Shown here in pieces: positions 30,185 to 56,138 of a stretch of DNA of 64,000 bases; positions within the stretch are counted from its first letter, which is position 1; every line of letters begins with the position of its first letter. The stretch spans positions 62,001-126,000 of the forward strand of contig KE159795.1 of NCBI GenBank assembly GCA_000403475.2, given 5' to 3'. The position numbers and the translations under genes were made by a program. This DNA is from Lachnospiraceae bacterium MD308. Lineage in GTDB: Bacteria; Bacillota; Clostridia; Lachnospirales; Lachnospiraceae. The notes beneath the pieces are model-generated. The model did not search any database. It was not told the origin of the DNA and saw only the letters and a list, made by a program, of their open reading frames with translations.

Positions 30185-31231
30185 TTAAAAATCATTGCCC
30201 TTCAGACGCATATAACTGGCCCGGCAGATTAAGCTGGTTATACGAAAACATCTCAGCCGAAAGAAAAAAACAAGAATTTTTCTCGGCAAAATCCCATTTT
30301 TCCAATTATATTTCATCGCCCTCTGGTAAATAGTGTTTTTCAACATCCTAACACACATCTGACAATTCGTCCGATAAGGTCTGGGGCTTAAGGGGCTGAA
30401 CACCTCCCAGATCAGGACATAAGTCATATTCTCCAGGCAATAAGAATAGTATGCGTTTTCCAGAATCGGAAACATACCGCATTGTTCCAGAAGATTTTTT
30501 AACTTCTTCTGCAGTATTGCATGATTCTGCTGAAGTCCGGACATGAAGCCATGGGTAGCGGAACCTATGTGGATATCGTAAAAATACACCGGGACAGATA
30601 CATATATACAGGATCTGGCTCTTAACTGATATTCCATATTAAAAAGCAGATCTTCTCCTACTGCCAGCTCAGAAGAAAAGCGTATGGAATAACGGTCCAA
30701 AATAGATTTTTTGTAAGCCTTTGCCCATGGCGAACGAAAATCTAAATTGCCCTTTGCATCCAAAGGCTGCGGCACAAGAGTCCGCTTAATCAACTGCTGT
30801 ATCTCATTCCCCTGAAAGATCAATGTGCAGGCAGACAGATCCGCGTGAACACGTCTTTCTTCCTTCGTGGATTTTACAAAATCAAACATCAAAAGATCTG
30901 CCTCCCGATACTCTTTCCGGACAATAAGACTGAAAAAGTCCTTAAAGATAAAATCATCGGAATCCACAAACACAACCCACTGTCCCCGGCAATGATCCAG
31001 TCCTGTATTCCGGGCAGTGGAAACGCCCTGATTCTTCTGATGGATGACTTTGATACGGCCATCCTTCCGGGAATATTCTTCGCATATATCTGGACTGCTG
31101 TCGGTAGAGCCATCATTGACCAGAATAACTTCAACATCACCGCAGGCAGAATTTAAAACGGAACCCACACAGCGGTGAAGGTATTTTTCTGCGTTATAGA
31201 CTGGAATTATTATAGAAATCATCTCTTTCAC
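30185..31231 (-). CDS. GT2 glycosyltransferase
   Basis: A 348-residue family 2 glycosyltransferase. The GT-A nucleotide-sugar domain spans ~1-220: ISIIIPVYNAEKYLHRCVGS, VEVILVNDGSTDSSPDICEE and WVVFVDSDDFI, the last giving the metal-binding DxD. The C-terminal ~110 residues are helical and basic, as in membrane-associated EPS enzymes. It transfers one sugar from a nucleotide donor to a growing glycan on the cytoplasmic face. It is the last gene of the operon and starts directly after the ferredoxin-type gene. Sugar and linkage are unknown. Confidence 0.9.
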   Translation of the reverse strand: MKEMISIIIPVYNAEKYLHRCVGSVLNSACGDVEVILVNDGSTDSSPDICEEYSRKDGRIKVIHQKNQGVSTARNTGLDHCRGQWVVFVDSDDFIFKDFFSLIVRKEYREADLLMFDFVKSTKEERRVHADLSACTLIFQGNEIQQLIKRTLVPQPLDAKGNLDFRSPWAKAYKKSILDRYSIRFSSELAVGEDLLFNMEYQLRARSCIYVSVPVYFYDIHIGSATHGFMSGLQQNHAILQKKLKNLLEQCGMFPILENAYYSYCLENMTYVLIWEVFSPLSPRPYRTNCQMCVRMLKNTIYQRAMKYNWKNGILPRKILVFFFRLRCFRITSLICRASYMRLKGNDF

Positions 31232-32335
31232 CTATCTCCTTGAGAATAATCTTATCGCGGCATCGATCAATCGAATAAAGAAAGAAAACGGCAATATCTT
31301 ATACAGCATCATAAACAGCCTTCTCGCCTTTGCCATGCCGGAAGGCCCGCTCAGACGTGGCTGCTTCAAATCATCTTTTTCACATTCGAACCAATCCATA
31401 TTTTTCCGAACCTGTTCCCATATCTTCTTTGCTTTATCTGTGTGAAGAATAACCATTGAAGTTCCCATGCCGTCATCCATATCCGGCCTGACCTTTTCAA
31501 TCCCCCAGAAATCTCCAATCGTAAGATCGCTCCCCCGGTCTACGGTACAAAACTTACAGCTATGGCAGGACGGCCGCAGCATATAGTTTCCGAAATACAT
31601 GATGCAAAATCTGTCTCGGAAAAGAGAACCCGTATGCTCCTTTCCATCAATCACATAAGCATACGAATGTCCGTGGTCTCGTGCCCGTTTATCCCGGAAA
31701 GAAAAATCTGTCATTTTTCCATGATATTTTTTTTCCAGATACCTGACATAATTTTTCCATATTCCCGGCGACGGAACCCCGTAGCACACCAGATCCGCCG
31801 CAATAAGCCCGTCGTACTCACGACCCAGGAACAGTTTCAGCGCCCTGGTCTGACAGGGCGTCCCGACAAAAAGCACCCAACGCTTTTCCTCTAGTCTCTG
31901 ACGGATATCCGAAAAGATACCCTGCGTATTACTCTGGACATATTTTGTCCTTTTGAGGTCATCCAATTGTTTAAGGCTGTCCGCTTTCCGGTGGATCACT
32001 TCCATACGTTCGTTATAGCCCGCTCCGTAAACTACGCCCTTACGAGCAAGAACATATTCTGCCAGAACAGGGAATATGCCTCCTGAAGAACTAGAATACC
32101 TGGTCTTATCGTCTTTTACACGCGCCCCCAGGTAACGGTTCGCGCACTTTTCAGAAAATTGATTTTTTATCGGACAGACGTCTTCACATCGGCCGCACCG
32201 GATACATACCCGGCTGTCAACATATGGATAATCGAATCCCTCCCTGTCCCGCTCCATCCGAATGGCCTGTACCGGGCAGACATCCGCACAGGCTCCGCAC
32301 CCACAGCATTCCTCTTTTTTCGCATATAACTCCAT
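31232..32335 (-). CDS. F420 dehydrogenase beta-like ferredoxin protein of polysaccharide clusters
   Basis: A 367-residue protein starting MELYAKKEECCGCGACADVC. Two 4Fe-4S motifs lie at ~10-60 (CCGCGACADVCP, then CIRCGRCEDVCP). They are followed by the FrhB_FdhB domains (RYSSSSGGIFPVLAEYVLAR, KYVQSNTQGIFSDIRQRLEE, VLFVGTPCQTRALK, CHSCKFCTVDRGSDLTIGDF). Despite the family name, such genes are common in bacterial exopolysaccharide clusters, often next to pyruvyl transferases, and are thought to reduce a sugar or lipid intermediate. The start is two bases after the preceding stop. A longer frame to 32,512 overlaps the upstream gene and lacks family similarity. Confidence 0.85.
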   Translation of the reverse strand: MELYAKKEECCGCGACADVCPVQAIRMERDREGFDYPYVDSRVCIRCGRCEDVCPIKNQFSEKCANRYLGARVKDDKTRYSSSSGGIFPVLAEYVLARKGVVYGAGYNERMEVIHRKADSLKQLDDLKRTKYVQSNTQGIFSDIRQRLEEKRWVLFVGTPCQTRALKLFLGREYDGLIAADLVCYGVPSPGIWKNYVRYLEKKYHGKMTDFSFRDKRARDHGHSYAYVIDGKEHTGSLFRDRFCIMYFGNYMLRPSCHSCKFCTVDRGSDLTIGDFWGIEKVRPDMDDGMGTSMVILHTDKAKKIWEQVRKNMDWFECEKDDLKQPRLSGPSGMAKARRLFMMLYKILPFSFFIRLIDAAIRLFSRR

Positions 32336-32337
32336 TT

Positions 32338-33327
32338 CTAACCCTTTCGTCTTTGCATATTTAAAATCCTGTACCCAATCCTCCAAAGGGAGTCCTTTAA
32401 CAGCTCTTTTGTAAATCCCCGGTTGATAAACAGCAGCCATAACGCACACACCGCACGCCACATGCACCCGTATTTCACCGAGATGACATACCGCCGCTTT
32501 GCTTTCCAGCAAGTAATCCGCCTTTTTGATTCCTTATCATGTATATCGCAGATTTCCGCAATATCGTCAATCAAGTTTTCATAGTCCAGATACTTTTTCT
32601 CCTCTTCCGCCCGTGTCAGTTTCCGCCTGGAATGACTGTCCTCCCTGACACAGACACCGTATAACTGTTCCTGAATTGTAGGGCATTTATACCGGAACAT
32701 ATATGGCAGGAGCATCTGAAAATTCTGGCCTACAGGATACTCTGGTATATGGCGTTTTTGATATATCGAAAAAAAACACTCCGACTTTATCATATAGCAT
32801 CCGCAGCAGACAAAGGTTTTAAACTCCAGAATATTCCAGAACAGAGATTCCTCCGTCAAACTGCCAATCTGTTCTTCCGCATTTTTCGATTCTCCTGTTT
32901 CCGGGTCAACGTAATACGGCAAGGATCTGACACATTGATAATCCGGATTACGTTCAAGGAATTTCACTCGTTTTTCCACAGATTCCGGCTCCAACAGATC
33001 ATCGCTGTCAGGCCAGATCAGATATTCACCGGTCACATATTTCAGTCCCCGGTTAATCGCTGCAGAAGCATTTTTATGACTGCCCTGTACGATACGGTAA
33101 TCATAGCCTCTTGCAGCAAATTTCGCCCGGTACTCCTGTGCCGCCCGGATTGTTCCATCCGTTGAACCGTCGTCGGATAAAATCATCTCAATCTGCGGAT
33201 AAGTCTGCCGCAGTACGGACTCCAGTATCCGAAAAAGATGGTTTTCTCCGTTAAACACCGGGGTAACAATGGAAACTTTTCCTTCTGTAAATTTTATATT
33301 TCCTGTGCACATCACACACTCCTGCAT
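32338..33327 (-). CDS. GT2 glycosyltransferase
   Basis: A 329-residue family 2 glycosyltransferase: VSIVTPVFNGENHLFRILES at ~18-37, MILSDDGSTDGTIRAAQEY at ~48, and LIWPDSDDLLEPESVEKRV at ~103-121 carrying the DxD. The middle part (VCGCYMIKSECFFSIYQKR) fits enzymes that act on capsule or EPS intermediates. It has no signal peptide and a basic C-terminus (RILNMQRRKG). It lies in the distal, decorating half of the operon. Donor and acceptor unknown. Confidence 0.9.
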   Translation of the reverse strand: MQECVMCTGNIKFTEGKVSIVTPVFNGENHLFRILESVLRQTYPQIEMILSDDGSTDGTIRAAQEYRAKFAARGYDYRIVQGSHKNASAAINRGLKYVTGEYLIWPDSDDLLEPESVEKRVKFLERNPDYQCVRSLPYYVDPETGESKNAEEQIGSLTEESLFWNILEFKTFVCCGCYMIKSECFFSIYQKRHIPEYPVGQNFQMLLPYMFRYKCPTIQEQLYGVCVREDSHSRRKLTRAEEEKKYLDYENLIDDIAEICDIHDKESKRRITCWKAKRRYVISVKYGCMWRAVCALWLLFINRGFTKELLKDSLWRIGYRILNMQRRKG

Positions 33328-33344
33328 CCTTTTTCCTGTATCGC

Positions 33345-34004
33345 TTATGGTTTTTTAACAGCTGCATTTAAAAATGACACATAATCAAAGTCATCCAGAT
33401 ACCGCCGCCGGAAAAACCGCTCTTTATAGTTCAGTACCATCCCCAGCTCTTCTTTTTCCTCGAATCCCCCTATACAATATGCCGATGAGATCTCCGGATA
33501 CCTGACATGGGTCAGAATGAGCTTATTCTTATAAGGCAGTTTGTCAAAACGCTGTATCGTTTCATAAGTACATCCATCCCGTTCCGATCCAATCAAAAGC
33601 AGGTTATCCCAGTTTATTCTTTCTTTTCTTTCTTCCCACTTCTGAACTCCTTCTTCAAATGTATCATAATGTACAAAATGTATTTTAACATCTCCTAGCA
33701 TGCCTGCAGGACATCCTTTTTCACCTTTAATCTCCACGAGCTCCTGCTCCATATACCATTTCAGGTTCTCTGCAAATCTGACAAAATCATTCATTTCAAT
33801 CGTCAGGTTAATGGTTGGAGAAAGAAATGGAAGATTCAGATCATGATAAATGATCGTTCCGACACAATTTGATGCAATAATCGAAAAATTCAGATTATCC
33901 AACTTTTTCCTTTTCCTCTTTTTATATAAAATCTGCTCCTGGTATTTCATTGTATCGATCAGATTGCATAAAAATCTCTTAACCTTTTCCATCGTCTCCT
34001 GCAT
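33345..34004 (-). CDS. DUF1919-family exopolysaccharide biosynthesis protein
   Basis: A 219-residue protein with the DUF1919 pattern. FSIIASNCVGTIIYHDLNLP lies near 40-60, NLTIEMNDFVRFAENLKWYM follows, then GMLGDVKIHFVHYDTFEEGV and WEERKERINWDNLLLIGSER. The family occurs almost only in capsule and EPS clusters and probably acts as a glycosyltransferase or glycan-modifying enzyme, but no member has an assigned reaction that I know of. It sits between a pyruvyl transferase and a GT2 gene. Confidence 0.85.
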   Translation of the reverse strand: MQETMEKVKRFLCNLIDTMKYQEQILYKKRKRKKLDNLNFSIIASNCVGTIIYHDLNLPFLSPTINLTIEMNDFVRFAENLKWYMEQELVEIKGEKGCPAGMLGDVKIHFVHYDTFEEGVQKWEERKERINWDNLLLIGSERDGCTYETIQRFDKLPYKNKLILTHVRYPEISSAYCIGGFEEKEELGMVLNYKERFFRRRYLDDFDYVSFLNAAVKKP

Positions 34005-34037
34005 TTTTCTCCATCCTTCAACGCTTTATAGTGTAAA

Positions 34038-35156
34038 TCAAACCAGCATACTTTTTATATAGTCCAACGAATGCCTCCGCTCTTTTTCGATAAACTCTCC
34101 GACCCGCTCCCAGTCAATCTCCTGCATCATCTCCTCTTTCGCAGGCATTCTTCCTTGTTCTATAAGCCTGGATTTCAACTCAATCTTTTCAAGAAAGTTT
34201 TCCATTCGTGCATTCCGCTTACTGTGACCAAATACTAAAAAGTTTTTTTCCATGAGGACAGAAAACACCATACCATGAAATGAATTCGTTACAACACAAT
34301 CCGCATGTTGGAAAAAGCCGACAAATTCCGAAGGTCCGCCCTTAATTTCCACATCCAGCCAATCCTTTCTCTGTCCCGGCCACGGCATAGAAACCTGGAT
34401 GACCTTCTTTTTCAACTTTACCGACAAATCGCGCAGATACTCCATCATCTGTGCATTATATTCCGTGTATATAAATAAAATATAATGTTTCTGCTCCGGT
34501 GTTCTCCCTATTTTTTTCCACTCCTTTGACCTGAGCAAAAGTGTTGGGTCAAGGACATCCGTGACATTCCCGTGAAAAAAACTTTTTACATAAGGCACCG
34601 CACTTTTTTCCCGCAGGGATATGCAGTAAAAATTCCGGTTAACCGCTTTCTCAAAGACTGTACGGTATCTGTCCGGCAGCGATGCTTTACCAAAACTGGC
34701 TCCATATGCGATCAGCTTACAGTTTCCTTTTTCTTTTACGTTTCCGATATACGCATGATCCAACCCAACCGTTATCTCCGGATTCCACACCTGATCGCTC
34801 CCCACAAAAACACGGGTGTACTTTTCCAGGGAAAGGTTTTCTGCTTTCCTTACTGCCGGTTTTGCAGTCAGATACCGATGCCGGAAATTCCGCATATTCT
34901 TCCTTCTTCTCAAAAATGAAAAAAAGCAGAGCACATTTCTTGCAATCCCCCAGATCTGCAAATTATATCTGACTTTTCCGCCTGTCTCGACGCCCACAAC
35001 CGGAAACAGCCAGTATCTTCCCTCCAGTCTGACCGGCGCATAGGGAATCACTTCCACCTCTTCCCTGCCAAGCTCTTCCAAACAAGATTTAAGCGCATAT
35101 GCCTGCAGCATAGCCCCATAATCATCCGCCCAGTGAAATGTCAATATTCCGATCAT
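34038..35156 (-). CDS. Polysaccharide pyruvyl transferase
   Basis: A 372-residue enzyme of the polysaccharide pyruvyl transferase family: GILTFHWADDYGAMLQAYALKSCLEELG at the N-terminus (the N-Y-GA-LQ-YAL pattern), VFVGSDQVWNPEITVG at ~115, and the C-terminal VVTNSFHGMVFSVLMEKNF with conserved SFHG. It adds pyruvate ketals from phosphoenolpyruvate to sugars, making the polymer acidic. It is followed by DUF1919 and GT2 genes. Its presence predicts pyruvylated residues in the product. Confidence 0.93.
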   Translation of the reverse strand: MIGILTFHWADDYGAMLQAYALKSCLEELGREEVEVIPYAPVRLEGRYWLFPVVGVETGGKVRYNLQIWGIARNVLCFFSFLRRRKNMRNFRHRYLTAKPAVRKAENLSLEKYTRVFVGSDQVWNPEITVGLDHAYIGNVKEKGNCKLIAYGASFGKASLPDRYRTVFEKAVNRNFYCISLREKSAVPYVKSFFHGNVTDVLDPTLLLRSKEWKKIGRTPEQKHYILFIYTEYNAQMMEYLRDLSVKLKKKVIQVSMPWPGQRKDWLDVEIKGGPSEFVGFFQHADCVVTNSFHGMVFSVLMEKNFLVFGHSKRNARMENFLEKIELKSRLIEQGRMPAKEEMMQEIDWERVGEFIEKERRHSLDYIKSMLV

Positions 35157-35218
35157 CCTGCCCCACTCCTTCCTTTACATGTATTCAAAACAAAGCAAAT
35201 CTCCCTTATAAAGTCCTG

Positions 35219-36964
35219 TTATCTGACACGTACCAGCTTCCGGTCCTGAATTTTATACACGATATCACATTCGTTGGCCAGACTCATGTGATGGGTTACA
35301 ATCAGCAAAGTCCGCTCTTTCCTCACTTGCCCGATCGCATCCATAACCGCTTTTTCTGTCTCCATATCAAGCGCCGCTGTCGCCTCGTCCATGATCAGAA
35401 GTTCAAAGTTTTTATACAGCGCCCTTGCCAGTGCGATACGCTGGCGCTGCCCTCCGGAAATGGCCGTACCGTTCTCACCGATCACGGTATGTATCCCTTC
35501 CGGCATCTTTGCAATATCTTCCCATATCTGCGCATATTTCAGACACTCTATAATCCTTTCATCATCAATCTCGGTCTGTTTAGCCAAAAGCGCCACGTTA
35601 TTGCAGATTGTTTCCCCATTCATATACACAACCTGCGGGATGTAACTGACGATATCCCCAATCTTTGCCTGACACGCCCCTTCGGTGTCCGACTGCGAAA
35701 CGATATCATAATCATCATAAAAAACGGCGCCCGACTGCGGCTTTAACAGCCCTAATATCAAACTGAGAAATGTGGTCTTTCCTGCTCCCGATGTCCCGAT
35801 GACTGCAACCGAAGCGCCGGCCGGGATTTCCAAAGACACATCCTCAAACAGATTTTCCCTGCCGTCATACCGAAAGGTCAGATTTCTTATATACATTCCT
35901 TTTTTAAAGGTCACATTCTTCTGCCTGATTCCTGCAAGACGCTCCTCTTCTTTCTTTAATTCCACATACTGGTCAAGGCACTCCTTCAACTCCTTGTATG
36001 GCTTTCTGGAAAACTCAATGCTGTTTAGCCCGCCCACGATACTGTACGAAAGAGTCGCCATCCTGCTCAAAGCCGAAACGTATACAGTGACCGGAATAAA
36101 GTTAGACAACTCAGCTCCCCACAAAAAAAGAGACACAAAAATAATCAGCATGATTGCCTTCGCCCAGAGGTTCATAAACACCGCAATAATTTCATTTCTA
36201 TAATTATATTTGCTCTGCGCCTGTGTAAACGCCATACTTGCATCATGATATTTTTCCAGAACAGGAGCTGTATGCCCGCTGATCTTCATCTCCTCAAATA
36301 TACCGTATTCAAGCGTAATCTGGGCATTGGCCCTAATCTCGTATTTTCTGCATTTTTCCCCGTACATCTTCATCTGCGCGCGGTACATAAGAAACACCGC
36401 AGCGATAAGCACTGCAAATACAAGACTGGCAATAATCCCGAACCATTTTGAAATATATGTCAAAATAACCGCATAACCCGCCATAGTAAATATATTTACG
36501 CCAAGCCCCACACACGCCAGAATAATATTCATGCTTTTCATCGTATCGCTGCGTACGATTTCCAATGCCTGCATTACGCTTTTCTGCTCATGCTGTTCCA
36601 GATCTTCTTTTGCAAACAATTCAAAAACCTTCATTGACAGCTGCTGCGTGCCATAATACAAAAAATGATTGGAAAATCTGCACCGGAACATCTCAAGCAC
36701 AACCTCTGATAAAAACATAAGCAGTATCACCGCGGCACGCAAACCTCCTGCCAGCACAGTATCTTCGGAAATTGTACTGATAAAATAAACCGTCACATAA
36801 AAACTGAAGACATCGATAATCGCACGGATACATCCCAAACATGCAAACCGCTTCCAGTTTTTCTGCTCTCCTTTATCCAAAAAACTTGTCATATATTTGA
36901 ATACTTGTATCAAATCCATCCTTCTCCCATATGAATATTCGGTTTCCCCGCTATAAATCCCCAT
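35219..36964 (-). CDS. ABC exporter, fused membrane and ATPase domains
   Basis: A 581-residue half-transporter. Six transmembrane helices (~35-320) precede an ATPase domain (~355-580). Walker A is VAVIGTSGAGKTTFLSLILG, the signature is AISGGQRQRIALARALYKNF, Walker B is LLIMDEATAALDMETEKAVM, and the switch His is in LLIVTHHMSLAN. It is probably a homodimer exporting lipid-linked glycans or a related substrate. The start at 36,964 overlaps the upstream stop as TAATG; ATG 36,919 (MDLIQVFKYM) is a possible alternative. Because PelG is present too, the operon carries two potential export or flipping functions. Confidence 0.93.
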   Translation of the reverse strand: MGIYSGETEYSYGRRMDLIQVFKYMTSFLDKGEQKNWKRFACLGCIRAIIDVFSFYVTVYFISTISEDTVLAGGLRAAVILLMFLSEVVLEMFRCRFSNHFLYYGTQQLSMKVFELFAKEDLEQHEQKSVMQALEIVRSDTMKSMNIILACVGLGVNIFTMAGYAVILTYISKWFGIIASLVFAVLIAAVFLMYRAQMKMYGEKCRKYEIRANAQITLEYGIFEEMKISGHTAPVLEKYHDASMAFTQAQSKYNYRNEIIAVFMNLWAKAIMLIIFVSLFLWGAELSNFIPVTVYVSALSRMATLSYSIVGGLNSIEFSRKPYKELKECLDQYVELKKEEERLAGIRQKNVTFKKGMYIRNLTFRYDGRENLFEDVSLEIPAGASVAVIGTSGAGKTTFLSLILGLLKPQSGAVFYDDYDIVSQSDTEGACQAKIGDIVSYIPQVVYMNGETICNNVALLAKQTEIDDERIIECLKYAQIWEDIAKMPEGIHTVIGENGTAISGGQRQRIALARALYKNFELLIMDEATAALDMETEKAVMDAIGQVRKERTLLIVTHHMSLANECDIVYKIQDRKLVRVR

Positions 36965-37968
36965 TATCCCGTTTGTCGTCCTCTTGAACCGGCATAATCT
37001 TCACATATTTTCCATATTTTAAAAATCACGCTTGACAAAGGATAACAATATAAAAATAAAGAAAAATATAATCTCGTCTTCCAGCTCAACTGCCGGAAGA
37101 TTTGTAGTTTCTTTTCTCTTTTTGCCAGATATTTTGCGTATTTCATCAAATTCGAATTTTGACACCTTCTGCCTTTATTGTACCATTCAGTTATGCCGGC
37201 AATAATATTGTATTCCCTGCATATGGCATTTTCTTTTCTTTTGCTTTGCAGTTCATGGTCGCGGATATAACATTCAATCCGGTACCTTTCCCGGCATGCC
37301 TTCACCGAAAACTCTTTGCTTGCGTTCTCCTCATGTCTTCTGTAATAATACCAGTCGCGCTGCAGAACCGACACGCCGCCTCCCTTCGTCAGCAGTTGAT
37401 AGACAAACAGCGTATCCTCGCCATGGCCCAGAGTTTCGTTAAACCGGACATTATCTGTCGCTGTACGGGAAATCATTTTCCCCCCTATTCCGCAAAGCAT
37501 TGGATTATTCATATACTCCAGCGCCTTTTTATTATCCATGTAAAAATCATCACCGCGGATGGACGTCTTTAAGAGCGCTGCTTTCAAAAAATCGTCAGCC
37601 GTACCGTAACATATACCTTCAGCCGCCAGAACCGTATGGTTTTCTTCCTGCAATTGATAAAGCGCCTCCAAAAGCTGCGGATGGATCAGGTCGTCACTGT
37701 CCAGGAAAAACAGATATTTCCCCTGCGACACTTCTATCCCAAGGTTTCTTGCGGCAGAAACTCCCTTATGTTCCTGCCTGACAAGCCGGATTCTTTTATC
37801 TTTTTGACATAGCATTTCACAGATCTCCGGACTGCTGTCCTCAGAACCGTCCTCAATCAGGAGCACTTCAAATGCAGAGTAAGTCTGCTTTAACACCGAT
37901 TCTATGCAGCTGCACAAATATTGCTCAGAATTATAGACTGGAACAATTACCGATATCAAATCCCCCAT
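36964..37968 (-). CDS. GT2 glycosyltransferase
   Basis: A 334-residue family 2 glycosyltransferase starting MGDLISVIVPVYNSEQYLCS behind GGAGG. Conserved blocks are FEVLLIEDGSEDSSPEICEM at ~33 and YLFFLDSDDLIHPQLLEALY at ~83, with the DxD metal site. The C-terminal region is helical and basic. A longer open frame to 38,190 overlaps the upstream gene and has no family features before this Met. Its stop overlaps the ABC exporter start (TAATG), so translation is coupled. Confidence 0.9.
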   Translation of the reverse strand: MGDLISVIVPVYNSEQYLCSCIESVLKQTYSAFEVLLIEDGSEDSSPEICEMLCQKDKRIRLVRQEHKGVSAARNLGIEVSQGKYLFFLDSDDLIHPQLLEALYQLQEENHTVLAAEGICYGTADDFLKAALLKTSIRGDDFYMDNKKALEYMNNPMLCGIGGKMISRTATDNVRFNETLGHGEDTLFVYQLLTKGGGVSVLQRDWYYYRRHEENASKEFSVKACRERYRIECYIRDHELQSKRKENAICREYNIIAGITEWYNKGRRCQNSNLMKYAKYLAKREKKLQIFRQLSWKTRLYFSLFLYCYPLSSVIFKIWKICEDYAGSRGRQTG

Positions 37969-37988
37969 CAGCTTGACCTCCCAGATTA

Positions 37989-39059: not shown

Positions 39060-39103
39060 CTCCAAATCCTCCGTATTAAAAAACCATCCGTATCCGAAAA
39101 TTA

Positions 39104-42843: not shown

Positions 42844-42869
42844 CTTGCACCTCTTCTTTTCCGATTAAT

Positions 42870-44983: not shown

Positions 44984-44993
44984 GATCTTCTTC

Positions 44994-46578: not shown

Positions 46579-46581
46579 CTG

Positions 46582-48054
46582 TCAGCTATTCTCCTCTGCA
46601 GTCTTTTCTCTTAAGCTGCGCCTGTCAAATACTTTGCCGGAAGGCTGCTCGCCTTTTTTGCGTTTCAACAGATTACCGTTGCAGAAGACGTGCCTGTCAA
46701 TATTTCTCTCAATCCAGCGAAGCCGCATATACGTAACCGTCCAGCCGGTAAAGGAGCCGGCCACCACGCCAATCCCATACCATATCGCATCCAGACGCAC
46801 TGCAAAGATGCTTACAATAAGAGTAACCGTAAAAAAGCTCAGCGTCGCAAGCACCATGCCGGACATATCATTAAAATAATACAAAAACAGAATCGCAGAA
46901 TACATCAGGAAAAGGATAAAATACCCCGCAGCCAGGCAAGGATAGATACTCATGACCAGACCCGAAAAGCCAAACAAAGGCAGCAGCACAACGCACAGAA
47001 GATAGACGACTACTGTGATAATGAACTGTATACGCGCCAAACTCATCAGAGAACTTCCCATCTGCCGGAACATCTGCCTTTTATCATTCTCAATATCCGC
47101 CTTTTTAGCTCCGATTACCGACTCGGAAAAAGCCTTATACTTCTCATGGAAATGCATCTCAATCTGAGCGATAAAAATAATTGTTGCAGATATATTGGTA
47201 AACATCGCCAGACAACTCGCCATATCATACGGCTGGTTACAGACAAATGTATCCACCACAACCATCTTCATATCCGTGTTCCAGAATACAAAATTGTGCA
47301 CATACATCCCGGCGATATACAGAAAATTCGTTACAATCAATTGCCAGTACTTCTTAAAATACCCCAGCACTTTCCCATATTTATTACTGTTGCGCTTGAA
47401 ATACCGTTTGACAAAGGAAAATTCCAGCACTGCCATAAGGAAAACGCCTGTCATCATTGCAAACAGCATACTTTCTGTAATGCTCCACCGAAAAAGAAAC
47501 CGCAGAATCAGCGAAAGGATAAAGCTCTCCACCATCCCGATTGTAAAAAACAATGATATTTTCTCATAATCTTTACAAATAGACAGGTAGATCATTGAAT
47601 AGATTGCCATCACAAGAGATATATACCCGCAAAATCCGGTAAACACATAAAATATCTTCACACCGCCCACAAAATGCTCCCACAGGCAAAACGGAATGCC
47701 GAGCAGGCAGCTTAGGGACAGGTTCAAAACCAGCCCAAGATAATAGCATGGCAGAATATCCTGATACCGTTCCTCATAGATAACATCCGACATATACTTC
47801 GACAATACCGCATTGAAAGGGGAAACCGTCATCAGGGAAAAAATAAACATATATAAAATCGTACAGGAGAATAATTCCCGGTTCAGATATCCTACTTTGT
47901 TAAAGCCCAACACTTTACCCATCAACAGGATATTCAAGATTACCACAAACATAGGCGCCACTGTGACAACCGTACTGTATGCAAATCCTACGAGATTAGC
48001 TGCAATGCTGTTTTTTTCAAATATGCTGTTAAGCTTTACTCCTATTCCCGCCAT
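46582..48054 (-). CDS. pelG: PelG-like polysaccharide export membrane protein
   Basis: A 490-residue protein with about 12 transmembrane helices and the PelG start pattern MAGIGVKLNSIFEKNSIAAN, then GFAYSTVVTVAPMFVVILNI. PelG belongs to the MATE/polysaccharide-exporter-like superfamily and, with PelD, PelE and PelF, forms the membrane synthase that makes and moves Pel. Acidic and basic residues in helices (YYLGLVLNLSLS, KYWQLIVTNFLYIAGMYVHN) fit a transport role. The gene follows pelF by three bases, the same order as in known pel loci. The C-terminal ~45 residues are a charged cytoplasmic tail. Confidence 0.88.
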   Translation of the reverse strand: MAGIGVKLNSIFEKNSIAANLVGFAYSTVVTVAPMFVVILNILLMGKVLGFNKVGYLNRELFSCTILYMFIFSLMTVSPFNAVLSKYMSDVIYEERYQDILPCYYLGLVLNLSLSCLLGIPFCLWEHFVGGVKIFYVFTGFCGYISLVMAIYSMIYLSICKDYEKISLFFTIGMVESFILSLILRFLFRWSITESMLFAMMTGVFLMAVLEFSFVKRYFKRNSNKYGKVLGYFKKYWQLIVTNFLYIAGMYVHNFVFWNTDMKMVVVDTFVCNQPYDMASCLAMFTNISATIIFIAQIEMHFHEKYKAFSESVIGAKKADIENDKRQMFRQMGSSLMSLARIQFIITVVVYLLCVVLLPLFGFSGLVMSIYPCLAAGYFILFLMYSAILFLYYFNDMSGMVLATLSFFTVTLIVSIFAVRLDAIWYGIGVVAGSFTGWTVTYMRLRWIERNIDRHVFCNGNLLKRKKGEQPSGKVFDRRSLREKTAEENS

Positions 48055-48057
48055 CGT

Positions 48058-49509
48058 TTACTCCTTTTCCCGGACTGTCCCGTCTTCCCAGATTAGTCCC
48101 ATGCTTTTTGCAAAATCCTTATAGATACCGCGATATGTATCAATCATAAACTCATACTGATACTTCTCCATCACTCTCTGATATCCGATTTCCCCCATCT
48201 CAAGGCGCATTGCCTTATTTCTCGCCATAGTCACCATGGCGCGGGCAATCTCCTCGACATTCATAATATGTGTTACAATCCCCGCAGCACCCAATTCATC
48301 AGCCTCTCCCATAATCAGCCCTCTGCAGTTTCCTACGTCTGTCGCAATAACCGGCTTGTGCGCTGCAAAACTTTCCAGAATCGTAAGCGGCTGTCCCTCA
48401 CTGATACTGGTCAGGATTGTCAAATCCATCTTCCCTAAATATTCCCTGACATCAACCCTGCCGGTAAATTCAACATCCGGAATTCCTTCTGCCTCCACAA
48501 GATCAAAACATTCCTGTGCATATTCCTTTTCTTCCTCCCACGGACCCATGATCCAGAGTTTTAATGAAGGTTCTGCCTCCCGCGCAAAGCTGAATGCATG
48601 AATCAGCGTTTTGACGTCTTTGATCGGAGCGATACGAAGTACGGCGCCGATATAAACCCGTTCCTCTTCTTCTTCACTTTTTCCCGGAATACCATTGAAA
48701 TTTTCCACCAAGATTCCATTGGGCGTAATCATCGTCTTTTCATAGGGGCATCCCAGCTCAACTTCAAGCTCCCGGGCATGTTCATAAAGACTGGTGACCA
48801 AATCCGCCCTGTCGTAAGCAAGATTTGACATCTTTCGAAACTGTTCAATCCATATATCTTTATAGATTCCTTCCACCCACTTTGCCTTGATCAGTTCTTC
48901 CTCACGCTCTCTTGTATAAATACCGTGCTCCGATATGAGAAGACGCCCTCCGTGGATGTATTTTGCCATACTTCCAAGTACTCCTCCATAACCTGTTGCT
49001 GTACAGTGATACAGGTCTGCCTTCGGAATCTGCATTTTCATCGTATGGAACAAGGGCAGATAGATAGACCTCAGCATCCATAAAAAATCCGAAAATACAA
49101 TCTGACTGTAATTCAGGTTATAGCAATCCGTAACCGCATGAAAAAAATCCACAGACATCAGCAGACGGTCAACGGAAAGCGATTTTTTCTGAAACATATC
49201 AAACAGAGCCTCCCAGTTCACCTTCTGGTTCAGCAAAAGACTGCGCAGCGCCTGATATTCTTTTTTGTCTATAGATTTTACCCGCCGTCCCTTCTGGCTC
49301 CAGTTGTAATCTTCCAGATAAAGTTCATGCACTTCCGTTACATTCTCCGGCAGCTCGTATACGTACTTCCCGCTCCAGGAACGGTTCGCCACAATCGTCA
49401 GAATGACAAATTCCTGTTCCGGGAACGCCTGTATCAGACGGTGCAGCCAGCTTGACACACCGCCTACGACATATGGATAGCAGCCTTCTGCTATAAGACA
49501 GATTTTCAT
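48058..49509 (-). CDS. pelF: PelF-like GT4 glycosyltransferase
   Basis: A 483-residue GT4 enzyme with the PelF N-terminus (MKICLIAEGCYPYVVGGVSS then WLHRLIQAFPEQEF). Also present are PelF-type blocks ISEHGIYTREREEELIKAKW at ~190 and YEKTMITPNGILVENFNGIP at ~255. The donor site comprises LRIAPIKDVKTLIHAFSFAR and ISEGQPLTILESFAAHKPVI with the E-x7-E region. PelF polymerises UDP-GalNAc/GlcNAc in Pel synthesis and is cytoplasmic, recruited by PelG and PelE. It lies between the PelA-like gene and pelG, as expected. This is one of the best-supported assignments in the cluster. Confidence 0.93.
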   Translation of the reverse strand: MKICLIAEGCYPYVVGGVSSWLHRLIQAFPEQEFVILTIVANRSWSGKYVYELPENVTEVHELYLEDYNWSQKGRRVKSIDKKEYQALRSLLLNQKVNWEALFDMFQKKSLSVDRLLMSVDFFHAVTDCYNLNYSQIVFSDFLWMLRSIYLPLFHTMKMQIPKADLYHCTATGYGGVLGSMAKYIHGGRLLISEHGIYTREREEELIKAKWVEGIYKDIWIEQFRKMSNLAYDRADLVTSLYEHARELEVELGCPYEKTMITPNGILVENFNGIPGKSEEEEERVYIGAVLRIAPIKDVKTLIHAFSFAREAEPSLKLWIMGPWEEEKEYAQECFDLVEAEGIPDVEFTGRVDVREYLGKMDLTILTSISEGQPLTILESFAAHKPVIATDVGNCRGLIMGEADELGAAGIVTHIMNVEEIARAMVTMARNKAMRLEMGEIGYQRVMEKYQYEFMIDTYRGIYKDFAKSMGLIWEDGTVREKE

Positions 49510-49561
49510 CGTAAGCCCTCTTCCTTATTTTGTAATGTACCGGCTTCTTCCGAGCATTATA

Positions 49562-51394
49562 TTACTCATAAGCAAACGCCGTACTCTTCATTGTTATTAC
49601 CGCCTCTGCCTCCGTAAACTCCAGCAGGAAGACATCATTCTCCAACCGGGTAAAAGAACCGCCGCTCATCCGTTCTATCGCTTCGCCGTGTGTCCTCAGA
49701 ATGAACCATACCGGCCTTGCCGTCTCCGAAAGCTGCATACGGATATCACGTCCCTCTCTTTTCTGGCTGTAATCAAGCGATAAAAATCTACGGATATGAA
49801 TGTCGCTTTCCGCCGTCGTCGTTCCCTGGAACTTCTGAAAATTCCTCCAGTAATTCTGGATATTCCAACTTAAATCCTCCGACAGCTTTTCCCAGCTATC
49901 CCGTTTATCCTCCGGATACACGGCATCTGTGACATCCAGCAGGATGTTCGTGTATCCGAGCATCGTCTCCACACACCGGATTCTCAGATCATCCCGGTAA
50001 GTATGTGTAAATCCGTCCGAAAGCACTTTTTGTTTCGTGACATGTTCAGACAGATAGCCGATAATCTCATTGTCTTTCCTGTCCTTTGATACGACCGTCC
50101 TTACTGAGGACATTGCTTTTTCATACATAACAGCTTTCATCTCGTCCTCACCCATACTTCCCCCATAAAAGGATACCGCATGATAATCCGGCAAAAGTCT
50201 ATGTGCAAACTCATAATCCCTATCAAGCTTTTCTTTAAGCGGCGTACCCGATATATTAAGCCCGGAGAGCCCGGTCTCCACACCCTCCATATTGAGATTT
50301 TTCAGGTAATAGTCAAACTGTTTTTCCTCCGGCTCCAGACCGTCCTCGTAATCAAGCTGCAAAGCTACCATACACGTAAGCCCCAGCCTGTTTCTTCGGT
50401 ATACGCTCATAATTCCCGGCCACAGAACGTCACGCCCTACCCCTCTCATGTTTCTGCTGTAGATATCCATCAGCCGTTCTTCATTTTCCTGCGCCATAAC
50501 CGGATAATTGGCAGCGACCATATTCTGTGCATTTACGATTGGATAAATCTCATAGGCGTTCATCTGCGCCGCCATTGCAGAGAGAATACCAATCCCTCCA
50601 AACTCCTCCATATAACTTCCGTTCACTGCCATCAGACACGAATCACGGTAATTTTTCTTCCATATGATGACCGGATATTCTTCGGACTCAATATCTTCTT
50701 CATCCACGATTCCTTTCATATAGGCCTCTGTACCTGATTCCAGCTCATACCACGGCAGTATCAGATCCATATCCTGCCGTTTCTTTGCCTCTTTCTTATC
50801 TTTCGCCATATAGACAGCTTCTCCTCCCAGCAAAAAACCATCATACAGATGAACGCCTTTTATCCGGCTTCGGTCTTCTCTCACCCTCCGGATTCCAAAT
50901 AACTTTTGCACCCTCCGGCTTTTCTTTACCACGGACACGTCCGGCATACGGCAAAACACCACATCGCTGCCCGTATCCAAATACTCCTCCAGGGCTTCTA
51001 ACTCCGTGTCTTCTTCCCACCTGATATAATCCGGATCAATAACCAGCATATACGGAACCGATTTATCAAGCTTCCACTCTGCGGACTTACACAGTTCCAG
51101 GGAAGTGTAGCTTTTCATCTCTCTCTTTGTGTAGGACGCCCATACTCCCACAGCTTCTTCCATCTTTTCTCCGCCAATATATACAATTAAGTCCCGCGCC
51201 TGCCCGGAAAGCTTTGCCGCATCCTTATTTACTGAATATGACACGCTTTCTCCCGGCAGCATATTTCTATCCTTCCAATAAGGATTCGTCTCATAATCAT
51301 TCCATCGTTCCGTCATAACTCCAATCGACAGAAACATAAAAAAAATGATAAACATAACAATGGTGATTGCAAAATAGTTCCGACGTGATATCAT
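49562..51394 (-). CDS. PelA-deacetylase-like membrane-anchored protein (DUF2194-like)
   Basis: A 610-residue protein with one N-terminal transmembrane helix (~8-27) and a large extracytoplasmic part. The first ~300 residues form an alpha/beta domain (LIVYIGGEKMEEAVGVWASY, YMLVIDPDYIRWEEDTELEA). Residues ~340-470 resemble a polysaccharide-deacetylase-type barrel with VALQLDYEDGLEPEE (348-352 DYEDG in place of the usual T-F-D-D-G) and YHAVSFYGG. A C-terminal beta domain follows. Its place between pelE- and pelF-like genes matches the PelA deacetylase of Gram-positive pel loci. The hydrolase domain of PelA is absent. Deacetylase activity is inferred; key His ligands are not obvious. Confidence 0.7.
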   Translation of the reverse strand: MISRRNYFAITIVMFIIFFMFLSIGVMTERWNDYETNPYWKDRNMLPGESVSYSVNKDAAKLSGQARDLIVYIGGEKMEEAVGVWASYTKREMKSYTSLELCKSAEWKLDKSVPYMLVIDPDYIRWEEDTELEALEEYLDTGSDVVFCRMPDVSVVKKSRRVQKLFGIRRVREDRSRIKGVHLYDGFLLGGEAVYMAKDKKEAKKRQDMDLILPWYELESGTEAYMKGIVDEEDIESEEYPVIIWKKNYRDSCLMAVNGSYMEEFGGIGILSAMAAQMNAYEIYPIVNAQNMVAANYPVMAQENEERLMDIYSRNMRGVGRDVLWPGIMSVYRRNRLGLTCMVALQLDYEDGLEPEEKQFDYYLKNLNMEGVETGLSGLNISGTPLKEKLDRDYEFAHRLLPDYHAVSFYGGSMGEDEMKAVMYEKAMSSVRTVVSKDRKDNEIIGYLSEHVTKQKVLSDGFTHTYRDDLRIRCVETMLGYTNILLDVTDAVYPEDKRDSWEKLSEDLSWNIQNYWRNFQKFQGTTTAESDIHIRRFLSLDYSQKREGRDIRMQLSETARPVWFILRTHGEAIERMSGGSFTRLENDVFLLEFTEAEAVITMKSTAFAYE

Positions 51395-51423
51395 CTTTAT
51401 CCTCTCACTTTTCTCTAATTACC

Positions 51424-52377
51424 TTAACTAAAAACCCGTATCAGCTCCAGAGTTTCACGATCTATCACAACATCCGACTGTTTCAGAGCGTTCAGAACCG
51501 CAAAAAATGCCTCCTTATTTTGCAGAGTAAAATAGAGCTTTAACCTGCATGTGTAAGCGCTGAGCTGTTCCGGATACTGTTCAGCCAGCCGCGCACACCA
51601 TTTTTCCGCGTCCGTATATTCCTTTACCTCCAGCAGCCTCATGCATACGCTCTCATACTGCTCTTCCTTAAGCTTTGACATATCTTTCTGCCGTATCTTT
51701 TCTGCCGTATCTGCCAGAATAAGTGCAAACCGCTTTTGCTCGACGGAAGTAAATATCTGCAGTTTCAGAATCTTATCCATATAATCAATCAGCATCTCTT
51801 CAACTGCTGTCTCGTCCTCTTTTTCCTCCTGAATCTCCAGAGTCAACGCCTGCACTCTTGCGCGGAATTCATTCAGCTCGTCAACTAAGACCGACGCCGC
51901 ATAATGTGATGACTCCGAATCTTCACTGTCAAGAGCCAGCGCGATTGCTGCCAGCGAATCCTGCATCTCTCCTTTGACCATATTCATCATGACCATCCGC
52001 AGGCTCTTTTTTTCATTTATGGCAAGCGCTTCCTCCAGCGGAACCATATTCCTTGCCCTTTCCTCGTCTGCCATCAGCTGTGTCTTTACACGTTCCTTAC
52101 TAAAGATTACGTCCTCCAGATCCGGAGCCGTCCAGAAAACAAGCTTATCCAGCAGATAAGTTACAGCAAAATAAAGCGGCCCTATGACCGGGCACAAAAG
52201 CATTATGATAAACTTAATCAGATAAGCCCTCCGGTTATCAAACTGCTTTTCCCCCTCTTCCTTTTGCTGTTCTTTAGCCGTAGTAACCGCTAACGTCCCC
52301 CACAGGAAATAGACTGCCGCTGTCAGTATATTTAAAAAAATTACTATCAGAAATATTCTCTCATTCCAATCCGGCAT
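51424..52377 (-). CDS. pelE: PelE-like membrane protein with helical repeat domain
   Basis: A 317-residue protein. Two transmembrane helices (~8-30 and ~53-77) are followed by an all-helical cytoplasmic domain resembling TPR-like repeats (DKILKLQIFTSVEQKRFALI, EYTDAEKWCARLAEQYPEQL, LYFTLQNKEAFFAVLNALKQ). Size, topology and place directly after the PelD-like gene match PelE, which in the Pel synthase connects PelD to PelF. Its ATG overlaps the upstream stop (TAATG), implying 1:1 production with the PelD-like protein. Sequence identity to known PelE is not judged here. Confidence 0.72.
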   Translation of the reverse strand: MPDWNERIFLIVIFLNILTAAVYFLWGTLAVTTAKEQQKEEGEKQFDNRRAYLIKFIIMLLCPVIGPLYFAVTYLLDKLVFWTAPDLEDVIFSKERVKTQLMADEERARNMVPLEEALAINEKKSLRMVMMNMVKGEMQDSLAAIALALDSEDSESSHYAASVLVDELNEFRARVQALTLEIQEEKEDETAVEEMLIDYMDKILKLQIFTSVEQKRFALILADTAEKIRQKDMSKLKEEQYESVCMRLLEVKEYTDAEKWCARLAEQYPEQLSAYTCRLKLYFTLQNKEAFFAVLNALKQSDVVIDRETLELIRVFS

Positions 52378-54572
52378 TATACTGTCTCCCTCTTCAGCTC
52401 GCTGTGATATCCCTTCTCCAAAAACCGCTCTATGACAATCTTCGCACCTTGCTGATCCGTATTCGACAGCAAGGCATATAAATTTCCTTCCAATATACCC
52501 AGATAATCCGTCTGCCGCATCTGAGCGCCGAGAATTCCGGCGGCTTCCTTCCTGTCGTTCTTTCCGACCCCCGTTATCTCAACCAGAGCACATTCCGTCA
52601 ATCCCTTATCCCCTGCCTCAAAAAACGCCTTGCTTAAATGGCTGAACGCTTCTTCATCCAATACGTTCGTCTCCTCCACATAACGCCTGTCTTTCAAGGC
52701 GTCAAGATAACGGTTCGCACGTACCACTGTATTCTGAACCAACGCCCCGATAATCGTCAGCCGATTCGCCTCCGCAAGCGTCATACGCTGCCATGGAATT
52801 CCCCATATCATCAGAATCAGCTGCATCTGCTCAGACTCATATACGGCGCTTGCCATAAGCGGGAGGTTCGCTTCCAGATTTTTATTGATATAGACCCTGT
52901 GCTCTTTCAATTCGTCGTACATACTCTCCATCGCCGTATATTTAATGGAGTTCCCCAATTTCCGGGCTTCCCTGGAAGTAGAGGAAAACAGTCTCGCATA
53001 ATCTCCGTTCGCTACCGTATAGACTGCCACATCCTTGCTTTCCATCAGTTTAGATAACATCTCCGCTGCGTAAAACAATACTTCCTCCGGCGCATACGCA
53101 TCCAGCTTAGAGGTAATCTCGTACACCTTCCCAAGGCTGTCCTTTTGGTTCATCACCTGCATCTCAAAGCTTTGCTTCATCCGGATGTTACTGTCATTAA
53201 TATCCTCAATATCATCCAGTTTTCCGTGGAGATAACCGATCCTTTCCGCATTTTCATCCTTAATATATTTTAACTGATCCCGCATGTATCCCACTATCAT
53301 TCCCAATATAAACAACTGAGCGATCCATACATAGGTATTATAGTCTAACAGCACCTCAAAACCTGTACGGGTATACATCTGGCGGAAACAATACCCTCCA
53401 ACCGCAAAAGCGGCAGATATCAGAGCCTGTTGCTGCCCGTGGATAATTGCAAACAGGAGCACATACAGCAGAAAAAAGTCCAGTCTGCTGAAATACTGGC
53501 TTCCGACCGCCCGGTTATTCAACATAAAAAACGGGATAAAGCAGATACAGTTCTCCACAAAAGGTACCAATTTCTTTAGGATTACTTTTGTTTTATGTAA
53601 AAGCTTTCCCAGCCTGCCGCCGCCGCTGTCTTCATCCTTAAGAAAAGACTCTCTGTGGCTCTTCATATACTCTGCAACCTTCTGTACGCCCGCCTCATAC
53701 TGTACAAAAACCTGCATTGGATATTCCTTCTGATACCTTGTTCCATCCAAAACCAGCCGATGCTTCTGGCCTACAGAGTTATCCACAATCTCAGTCTTTT
53801 CACCCATATATTTTTGAACCAAAACAGCAAGCTGCATCTCATTGATCTCTTCTCCCGAAGTGATATGGTAACATGCATGCGCCGATTTTCCGTCCACCAT
53901 CGCCTTATATGCAAATTCGATCGCATCCTTCAGATAAATCATGGAAAAAGAGTTCCGGCTGTTGGCAGATATCTTTCCGCTCCTTAAAGACTCCAGGCAC
54001 TGTCCGAAACAATAATCCTCCAAGTGCTCTCCTTTTTTCGGGATTCCGTAAACATGATCAAAGCGCAGAATCATGATATCCATTCCCTGGGCTGTACGGT
54101 AGCTGTTGCAAAGCTCCTCTCCATGGGCAATCGCCAGAGCCTTTAATCCCTTTGGCTCTGCCGTGATTTCTTCTCTTACATCCGCCCCGTAGGCGCTGCT
54201 GTAGACTTCATGGGAGGATATGTATACAAAGCGGCCTTTTCCCGTCATGGAATACGCAGATAAAAGATTCGTAAGCGCTGTAGAATAGCGCACCGACTCC
54301 TGTCTCGCCATACTCCAGTCAAAATTGGTATCATATGCTCCCATAAATACAACTAATTCCGGCCGGATGCTCTTAAAGATATCTTCAATACTTTCTGTGT
54401 TATATTCAAAATTATACTTTTCAAATACCCGCTTATAGGATGAACGTTTATCTTTCCGACCGGTCAGCAGATATACCTGATGACCACTTTTATTCATCTT
54501 ATCGATTACAGAATCCATAAACCTGCTGCTGCCGCCAATTAATAATACTGTCATACCTTTTGCCATCCTCAT
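52377..54572 (-). CDS. pelD: PelD-like c-di-GMP receptor fused to an N-terminal SDR/epimerase domain
   Basis: A 731-residue fusion. Residues ~7-310 are an extended SDR (NAD-dependent epimerase) fold, VLLIGGSSRFMD at 10-20, FVYISSHEVYSSAYG at 115-129 and LRFDHVYGIPK, but the Tyr-x3-Lys pair expected near 144-154 is replaced (KALAIAHGEEL), so catalysis is doubtful. Four membrane helices span ~338-430, followed by a coiled coil (435-490) and a GAF-like domain (~490-615). A degenerate GGDEF domain ends the protein. The inhibitory-site motif RQTD (686-689) is intact and sits exactly five residues before EGNLY (695-699), which replaces GGDEF. PelD binds c-di-GMP through this site to switch on polymer synthesis. 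First gene of the operon. Confidence 0.82.
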   Translation of the reverse strand: MRMAKGMTVLLIGGSSRFMDSVIDKMNKSGHQVYLLTGRKDKRSSYKRVFEKYNFEYNTESIEDIFKSIRPELVVFMGAYDTNFDWSMARQESVRYSTALTNLLSAYSMTGKGRFVYISSHEVYSSAYGADVREEITAEPKGLKALAIAHGEELCNSYRTAQGMDIMILRFDHVYGIPKKGEHLEDYCFGQCLESLRSGKISANSRNSFSMIYLKDAIEFAYKAMVDGKSAHACYHITSGEEINEMQLAVLVQKYMGEKTEIVDNSVGQKHRLVLDGTRYQKEYPMQVFVQYEAGVQKVAEYMKSHRESFLKDEDSGGGRLGKLLHKTKVILKKLVPFVENCICFIPFFMLNNRAVGSQYFSRLDFFLLYVLLFAIIHGQQQALISAAFAVGGYCFRQMYTRTGFEVLLDYNTYVWIAQLFILGMIVGYMRDQLKYIKDENAERIGYLHGKLDDIEDINDSNIRMKQSFEMQVMNQKDSLGKVYEITSKLDAYAPEEVLFYAAEMLSKLMESKDVAVYTVANGDYARLFSSTSREARKLGNSIKYTAMESMYDELKEHRVYINKNLEANLPLMASAVYESEQMQLILMIWGIPWQRMTLAEANRLTIIGALVQNTVVRANRYLDALKDRRYVEETNVLDEEAFSHLSKAFFEAGDKGLTECALVEITGVGKNDRKEAAGILGAQMRQTDYLGILEGNLYALLSNTDQQGAKIVIERFLEKGYHSELKRETV

Positions 54573-54641
54573 TTAATCTTTCCACGAGCTACTACATGAC
54601 TGTGAAAGTTTGTATTTACTTGTAGATAATATTTTTATAGT

Positions 54642-54678: not shown

Positions 54679-54735
54679 TTATTATGTCATATTTTTCATA
54701 CATATAAAAATTTCTACATAAAAGGGATTAATATC

Positions 54736-55053: not shown

Positions 55054-55075
55054 TACATATAATCCTTTTACATCA

Positions 55076-56116: not shown

Positions 56117-56138
56117 ACGAAAAAATATAATCCAATCA

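Follow-up and report, generated by a model that had tools for sequence, protein, structure and literature searches.

A Pel-type locus of Lachnospiraceae that lacks the PelA deacetylase residues and may instead decorate its polymer through a GT-C-type glycosyltransferase

Introduction

What does a bacterium make from a locus that opens with the genes of Pel synthesis and runs on through 14 further genes of glycan assembly? Here this question is taken up for Lachnospiraceae bacterium MD308, in a stretch of 64,000 nucleotides (assembly GCA_000403475.2, contig KE159795.1, positions 62,001 to 126,000; hereafter the window, to which all coordinates refer). The locus consists of 19 open reading frames (ORFs), g01 to g19, all on the minus strand and head to tail from 54572 to 30185 (~24 kb). 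Its PelA belongs to a clade that has lost the residues of the carbohydrate esterase family 26 (CE26) deacetylase, and a DUF6541 membrane protein travels with that clade. We lean towards the reading that the locus makes a Pel-type backbone gated by cyclic di-GMP (c-di-GMP), which PelA does not deacetylate and to which lipid-linked sugars supply a decoration added outside the membrane.

Pel is a linear, partly deacetylated polymer of N-acetylgalactosamine (GalNAc), and the deacetylase activity of PelA is reported to be necessary for it in Pseudomonas aeruginosa and Bacillus cereus (accessible parts of PMC10269871 and PMC13254593). In 2020 DUF4832 genes were described beside pel, as was a form of the locus with CotH, VTC, DUF4956 and DUF4832; Roseburia pel loci were placed within a larger capsule- or teichoic-like cluster, the function of which was left open (PMC7112168, as far as its accessible text and S7 Fig legend go).

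Results

Identity of the Pel core

The genes were annotated by Pfam and NCBIfam profile searches, which agreed almost gene by gene with an initial annotation made from the sequence alone. The ORF coordinates likewise bear out its description of 19 minus-strand genes with overlaps or short gaps: the distances range from -202 to +62 nt, and, judged from the translations, three of the longer overlaps shorten with internal starts in g08 (~44983), g13 (~37968) and g18 (~32350). The first five genes are as follows.

52377 to 54572, minus strand: g01, pelD; N-terminus like a short-chain dehydrogenase/reductase (SDR; Pfam Epimerase, 52 bits), membrane region, C-terminal degenerate GGDEF domain with RQTD I-site
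51424 to 52377, minus strand: g02, pelE-like, by position and co-conservation only
49562 to 51394, minus strand: g03, pelA (DUF2194, 75 bits), without the CE26 deacetylase active site
48058 to 49509, minus strand: g04, pelF, glycosyltransferase family 4 (GT4) polymerase (NF038011, 365 bits, cut-off 100; DUF3492, 259 bits)
46582 to 48054, minus strand: g05, pelG, exporter (PF16933, 485 bits)

The initial annotation had staked its assignment on PelF and PelG falling within Pel, and profile scores and trees place both there: g04 and g05 are true members of their families, with profiles above cut-off and PelG among the Bacillota Pel proteins. No Pfam or NCBIfam match was obtained for g02. The tail of g01 contains RQTD and, five residues on, EGNLY; RxxD occurs within the last 75 residues in 75 of 76 type II PelD proteins longer than 600 residues (copies included; types are defined below). 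The c-di-GMP-type I-site that the proposed gating calls for is present in PelD, which would be expected to bind the nucleotide. There was no GGDEF Pfam match in g01, and the genome itself has six GGDEF matches.

PelG was above cut-off in 70 of 397 Lachnospiraceae genomes and in 13 of 398 Bacillota genomes, the source genome being counted in each set. Neighbourhoods were taken from 74 places (72 from the Lachnospiraceae search and two congeners) and from 69 further named loci, with at most 10 kb on either side. These 143 PelG loci reduce to 130 once copies at least 97% alike are removed; the 136 aligned PelA rows and the count of the PelD motif (both below) include copies. Loci were typed by PelG identity to that of the window, as type II (at least 48 or 49%, two thresholds between which locus L157 shifts class in the PelA and neighbourhood counts), type III (from 34%) or type I (below). 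The identities observed were ~49-87% for type II, 35-40% for type III (8 rows) and 23-28% for type I.

In trees of PelF and PelG (45 subsampled rows each, drawn with a midpoint root and containing several long branches), types II and III form one clade, with support of 99/96 and 99/98, respectively. The type I rows, those of other Bacillota and the four references (three from proteobacteria, one from a fusobacterium) fall outside it; one type I locus, L180, adjoins the clade in the PelF tree (89/93). Type I loci have pelDEAFG followed in most cases by ORFs sized like CotH, VTC and DUF4956, and 13 of 19 well-flanked ones have DUF4832. All four were confirmed by Pfam in L139, the one type I locus tested, and the label 'CotH-type' for the others rests on ORF sizes and DUF4832.

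In some type I loci, namely those of five genomes (G344, G380, G284, G229 and G324) and L154 (6028-9270), PelG lies in frames of ~1,080-1,108 residues, double its usual length. Schaedlerella arabinosiphila DSM 106076 has two type II pel loci (L048 and L078) ~36 kb apart, one with DUF6541 downstream and the other with DUF6541 between pelE and pelA.

Loss of the PelA active site

The catalytic residues of B. cereus PelA are D262, D263, an HxxxH pair, R458, H488 and D491 (accessible text of PMC13254593). In an alignment of 136 PelA rows plus g03, 24 of 30 type I rows retain all seven. None is retained in 74 of the 86 non-redundant type II rows, one in nine and two in three, and the nine type III rows keep none (six) or one (three); g03 retains one of the seven, in the D491 column, and has no HxxxH. 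Counted without an alignment in residues 231-520, HxxxH is present in 24/30 type I, 0/86 type II and 0/9 type III proteins. Misalignment in place of inactivity was rejected, since the alignment-free count also yields no HxxxH. The motif is found in all nine PelA proteins examined from other Bacillota and fusobacteria, five of which also have HPxD.

PelA of the type II/III clade has lost the CE26 deacetylase residues, and g03 is presumably inactive as a deacetylase; because its active site is gone, it would not deacetylate the chain. The initial label 'PelA-deacetylase-like' holds for the family (DUF2194) and fails for the catalytic residues. Four of the six type I rows that lack HxxxH come from tandem-PelA loci (L156, L158, L162 and L179), with at least one copy free of catalytic residues. 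A PDB sequence search with g03, and likewise with g11 (below), gave no useful match.

A conserved extension with a predicted GT-C glycosyltransferase

Six genes follow the core.

46114 to 46578, minus strand: g06, DUF2304 (PF10066, 33 bits, cut-off 25.5), GacJ-like candidate partner of a lipid-phosphate-sugar synthase
44994 to 46199, minus strand: g07, GT4 glycosyltransferase (Pfam), conserved with type II pel (69/75 loci)
44198 to 45067, minus strand: g08, glycosyltransferase family 2 (GT2), polyprenyl-phosphate-sugar synthase-like (PDB and NCBIfam matches), likely start ~44983
42870 to 44201, minus strand: g09, DUF4874-DUF4832, hydrolase-like (Pfam)
40522 to 42843, minus strand: g10, DUF6541-related membrane protein with GT-C fold (AlphaFold model and PDB fold matches)
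39104 to 40528, minus strand: g11, DUF4874-DUF4832, triosephosphate isomerase (TIM)-barrel hydrolase-like with invariant acidic residues (model and PDB fold matches)

Neighbourhood counts come from the 75 type II loci (non-redundant) whose flanks reach at least 5.5 kb before pelG and at least 8 kb beyond it. DUF6541 was found in 74, the GT2 of dolichol-phosphate-mannose synthase type (dpm) in 70, GT4 in 69 and DUF2304 in 60; a DUF4832 protein was present in 72, and two or more in 42. Among 19 type I loci that satisfy these flank limits, DUF6541, dpm and DUF2304 gave zero matches, the profiles having been made from type II loci and being less sensitive in type I.

By genome, the DUF6541 profile (51 proteins) matches 44 of the 397 family genomes: 33/33 with type II, 7/7 with type III, 0/30 with type I, and 4/327 without PelG above cut-off. 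The 33/33 is partly so by construction, because some of the species searched had contributed type II proteins to the profile; the 7/7 is not. Two of the four genomes without PelG read D-E-6541-A, G032 with a short piece of pelF and G006 on a contig that stops inside pelA, and the other two give one fragment and one weak match. In the type II genomes G030 and G416 a strong match lies on a different contig from pelG. Of 36 type II rows, 17 have the DUF6541 gene between pelE and pelA, and six of eight type III rows read E-6541-dpm-A-F-G. The DUF6541 membrane protein travels with the type II/III pel clade, and not by chance.

Against the DUF6541 profile g10 itself scores weakly (23.6 bits, cut-off 29). 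All 11 PDB matches to its AlphaFold model (pLDDT 89.5) at E<=1e-3 are DPY19, subunits of oligosaccharyltransferase (OST), PglB and ALG9; ArnT and AftA narrowly miss this threshold. We take these enzymes to share the GT-C fold. That fold is in part stated for them in the accessible text of PMC8035078. From the fold of its model, g10 is predicted to be a GT-C glycosyltransferase, and Asp174 (nearly invariant) and His178 (invariant) are candidates for its active site.

The best PDB match of g08 is a dolichol-phosphate-mannose synthase (1.8e-12) and its best NCBIfam match is PpgS (75 bits, below the cut-off of 370); g06 matches DUF2304 above its cut-off. DUF2304 is 'typical of GacJ-like proteins', and rhamnan decorations are started by a GacI/GacJ-like pair with their composition set by variable regions (PMC8327497, in its accessible part). 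The model of g11 (pLDDT 93.3) shows a TIM barrel and a beta domain, and most of the 50 PDB matches listed for it are glycoside hydrolases, at low TM-scores (<=0.39). Its DUF4832/TIM-barrel counterpart in Streptococcus intermedius is an active Pel hydrolase (accessible text of PMC12345266).

Across the wider phylum, seven of 398 genomes besides the source genome gave weak DUF6541 matches. Three loci from other Bacillota families, L244 (G700), L245 (G676) and L247 (G426), have PelF at 150-162 bits (over cut-off), two DUF6541-type proteins each and a GT2; L247 also has tetratricopeptide repeats over cut-off. In L244 a PelG scores weakly (31 bits, cut-off 29), and genes for a T2SSE ATPase and a polysaccharide deacetylase are present as well. 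The three are possibly a distant cousin system, and they suggest that the partnership of PelF and GT-C is wider.

Alternative cassettes at the distal end

The remaining eight genes are as follows.

37989 to 39107, minus strand: g12, GT2 of the cassette (Pfam; neighbourhood comparison)
36964 to 38190, minus strand: g13, GT2 of the cassette (Pfam), likely start ~37968
35219 to 36964, minus strand: g14, ATP-binding cassette (ABC) transporter, PglK-like (lipid-linked oligosaccharide flippase type; NCBIfam PglK, 220 bits)
34038 to 35156, minus strand: g15, polysaccharide pyruvyl transferase (PF04230, 94 bits)
33345 to 34004, minus strand: g16, DUF1919 (PF08942, 226 bits)
32338 to 33327, minus strand: g17, GT2 (Pfam)
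31232 to 32512, minus strand: g18, FrhB/FdhB-like with 4Fe-4S (PF04432, 68 bits), likely start ~32350
30185 to 31231, minus strand: g19, GT2, last gene (Pfam)

Cassette counts from the 75-locus survey, with flanks of at least 8 kb, are lower bounds. Since the cassette lies farther out, the region 5-25 kb after pelG (5-22 kb in one case) was surveyed in 20 type II genomes, with an ABC profile that may also match unrelated transporters. Homologues of g15, g16 and g18 occur together in five of them (G309, G290, G334, G253 and G003), in each in an order that differs from the window's; the other 15 have other cassette contents. In G290, the closest of the 20, PelA, PelF and PelG are 79% identical to the window's and g14-g18 are 39-63% identical, and in G309, G253 and G003 the values are 56-60% for the core and 38-66% for the cassette. 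The identity of g14-g18 stays at ~52-56% whether the core is at 79% or at 56-60%; divergence of the cassette is thus out of step with that of the core. That the closest relatives have no cassette was rejected: 10-kb flanks reach only to about g13, and G290 carries the pyruvyl/FrhB/DUF1919/ABC set, reordered. Recent import of the cassette was rejected on base composition, as the GC content (core 0.451, g06-g11 0.446, cassette 0.445) offers no contrast.

Of ten cassette or accessory proteins from other loci, three matched Wzx-type Polysacc_synt (two over cut-off, one below it), two matched NTP_transf_5 and one CotH; the remaining four had no match. Additional proteins of other loci matched Stealth and NTP_transf_5, and one from a type III locus matched a CDP-glycerol transferase; the far end of the latter locus has three proteins resembling unrelated transport genes. 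The best NCBIfam match of g14 is PglK (220 bits, below the cut-off of 1000), and it aligns to PglK chains over 88-577.

Pfam covers Wzy poorly. No initiating phosphoglycosyltransferase or Wzy model matched among g06-g19 at E<=0.01, a search that Wzy may escape, and by this result the distal part, which the initial annotation likened to a Wzy/ABC-type cluster, is not a self-contained Wzy cluster. That a self-contained Wzx/Wzy capsule had come to adjoin pel by chance was likewise rejected, as initiating enzyme and polymerase go unmatched and other loci have DUF6541 and dpm within the pel core. Nor do the 14 distal genes form one module: g06-g11 are a conserved extension that accompanies the first five genes consistently in relatives, and g12-g19, which do not, are one of several alternative cassettes. 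The proposed link of pel to glycan-modifying genes is seen across many genomes.

Genomic site and transcription signals

The pel locus lies beside the gene for elongation factor P (EF-P) in three genomes of the genus, namely that of the window (flank 54572-58000), G002 and G003; the congeners G001 and G005 keep the EF-P flank and have no pel within 20 kb. No tRNA was found at this site in the three congener stretches examined. The window's PelG shares 86% identity with its counterpart in another genus (G290) and 65% with those of pel-bearing congeners, but its aroK is closer to congeners (78-79%) than to G290 (71%), which suggests that the locus was replaced horizontally.

54650 to 54678, minus strand: promoter-like site TTGTAA-17-TATAAT upstream of g01 (consensus scan only)

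Promoter-like sites show no excess over 46000-56200 (25 against 21.1, sd 4.5, in shuffles) and an excess over 29500-46600 (55 against 34.4, sd 6.0). Terminator-like sites are more numerous than in shuffles for each half (16 against 7.5; 18 against 12.8). Given these excesses, internal promoters or terminators are possible; one transcript for all 19 genes is plausible. No c-di-GMP riboswitch or other known RNA upstream of the operon reached the Rfam gathering score. Immediately downstream lies a protein with a long repetitive TEQVTQ-type tail (28656-29819), and after it a tRNA (28523-28594). Elsewhere in the window, Rfam places an SQ2397 cis-regulatory RNA at 10975-11212 (154 bits).

Discussion

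We propose the following route. Binding of c-di-GMP to PelD (g01) would allow PelF (g04) to polymerise the chain in the cytoplasm, probably from UDP-GalNAc, and PelG (g05) would export it, both roles being those of their families. PelA (g03) would dock the emerging chain without deacetylating it. In place of deacetylation, g08 and its DUF2304 partner g06 would make a polyprenyl-phosphate sugar, which the cassette glycosyltransferases g12, g13, g17 and g19, together with the pyruvyl transferase and other modifying enzymes, would elaborate. A cassette-borne flippase, the PglK-like g14 here and a Wzx-type protein in some other loci, would flip the lipid-linked sugar, and g10 would attach the side chain to the Pel chain outside the membrane. 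The DUF4832 hydrolases g09 and g11 may then trim or release the polymer. A change of cassette would change the decoration, as in capsule or Lancefield-type loci.

The alternative that fares best, unlikely in our estimate, is that one operon serves two polymers, pelDEAFG making a Pel-like chain and the other genes a separate, merely co-expressed cell-wall or capsule glycan. Wzx, NTP_transf_5 and Stealth in the cassettes of other loci are kinds found in capsule clusters, no enzyme is proven common to both parts, and a Pel-unrelated polymer is raised for the Roseburia loci in the accessible text of PMC7112168. However, an initiating phosphoglycosyltransferase and a polymerase are unmatched in g06-g19, many loci have DUF6541 and dpm within their pel core, and DUF6541 is in 40 of 40 type II/III genomes against none of 30 type I.

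It is rather improbable that PelF and PelG of types II and III make a backbone other than GalNAc, so that 'Pel' would denote homology of the machine only. Type II PelG is on average 26% identical to type I PelG, and the HxxxH motif is gone from PelA in all 86 type II rows. Type II PelF, however, is on average 43% identical to type I PelF, above the 34% between type I PelF and Gram-negative references, and 72 of 75 type II loci retain DUF4832 proteins, one of which is elsewhere a proven Pel hydrolase.

Very improbably, g06, g08 and g10 glycosylate an exported protein or membrane anchor that holds Pel: the best fold matches of g10 are the protein glycosyltransferases DPY19, OST and PglB and g14 is PglK-like, but ArnT and Aft enzymes also match g10, at weaker E-values, and no conserved secreted acceptor gene was noticed in the gene strings, in which no search was aimed at one.

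Several observations weigh against a side chain placed on Pel by GT-C in exchange for deacetylation. Six type I PelA rows are also without HxxxH, and in the type I loci L180 and L182 the single PelA keeps one of seven residues in genomes without a DUF6541 match; deacetylation loss is therefore not tied only to the gain of GT-C. The type II locus L128 (10138-11817, G024) contains CotH and mixes both accessory sets. Among the 75 full-flank type II loci, five have no dpm match and 15 no DUF2304 match, and the zero counts in type I carry the lower sensitivity stated above. The window's operon has no GtrA or Wzx flippase match in Pfam. TM-scores of the 11 best matches of g10 are modest (0.28-0.46), and as DPY19 and OST, which glycosylate proteins, are among these matches, g10 could act on a protein. 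A GalNAc backbone, a lipid-phosphate-sugar donor and the polymer as acceptor of g10 are what we infer, as are c-di-GMP gating and side chains defined by the cassette.

With the Gram-positive pelDEADAFG systems (B. cereus ATCC 10987 and the streptococcal/clostridial CotH-PPP-DUF4956-DUF4832 form), the window shares the order D-E-A-F-G, the PelF and PelG families, the RxxD I-site and a DUF4832 protein beside the operon, and its SDR-type PelD is like that reported for clostridia. It differs from them in the lost PelA active site, the added genes of predicted GT-C (DUF6541) and lipid-phosphate-sugar type, the alternative cassettes and a separate PelF/PelG clade; CotH, VTC and DUF4956 had no match in the operon. 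Like the multi-component transmembrane glycosylation systems GacI/GacJ/GacK/GacL and CsbB/GtcA/YfhO, it combines a GT2 resembling lipid-phosphate-sugar synthases, a DUF2304 protein as candidate partner and a predicted GT-C protein, and the proposed decoration may be likened to the side chains of streptococcal rhamnan. Unlike them, it stands beside a Pel synthase and not rhamnan or teichoic acid genes, and has a PglK-like ABC transporter where those have a GtrA or Wzx flippase.

The Roseburia capsule/teichoic-like pel loci are probably of the window's type, and a Roseburia metagenome-assembled genome (L088) is type II here. The accessible text of PMC7112168 on those loci contains no mention of a dead PelA, a GT-C assignment or a clade-wide linkage. 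Neither a Pel/GT-C system nor an inactive PelA clade was described in the titles and abstract beginnings among the literature matches listed, a search that covers subscription journals poorly. The initial annotation saw in the combination of pel with modifying genes a possible new class of matrix glycan; that association is partly in print already (PMC7112168, accessible text).

Returning to a decorated Pel-type polymer, we put forward, tentatively but as a real possibility, that gut Clostridia make a class of matrix glycan by Pel-type synthesis under c-di-GMP control, with oligosaccharide side chains in place of deacetylation; GT-C would attach these chains, and an exchangeable, serotype-like cassette would set their structure. 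If true, a gut branch without the deacetylase site and with a recruited GT-C would have found another solution, by which the surface of commensal biofilms could vary, and would offer a concrete answer to the question, raised in 2020, whether such loci make Pel at all.

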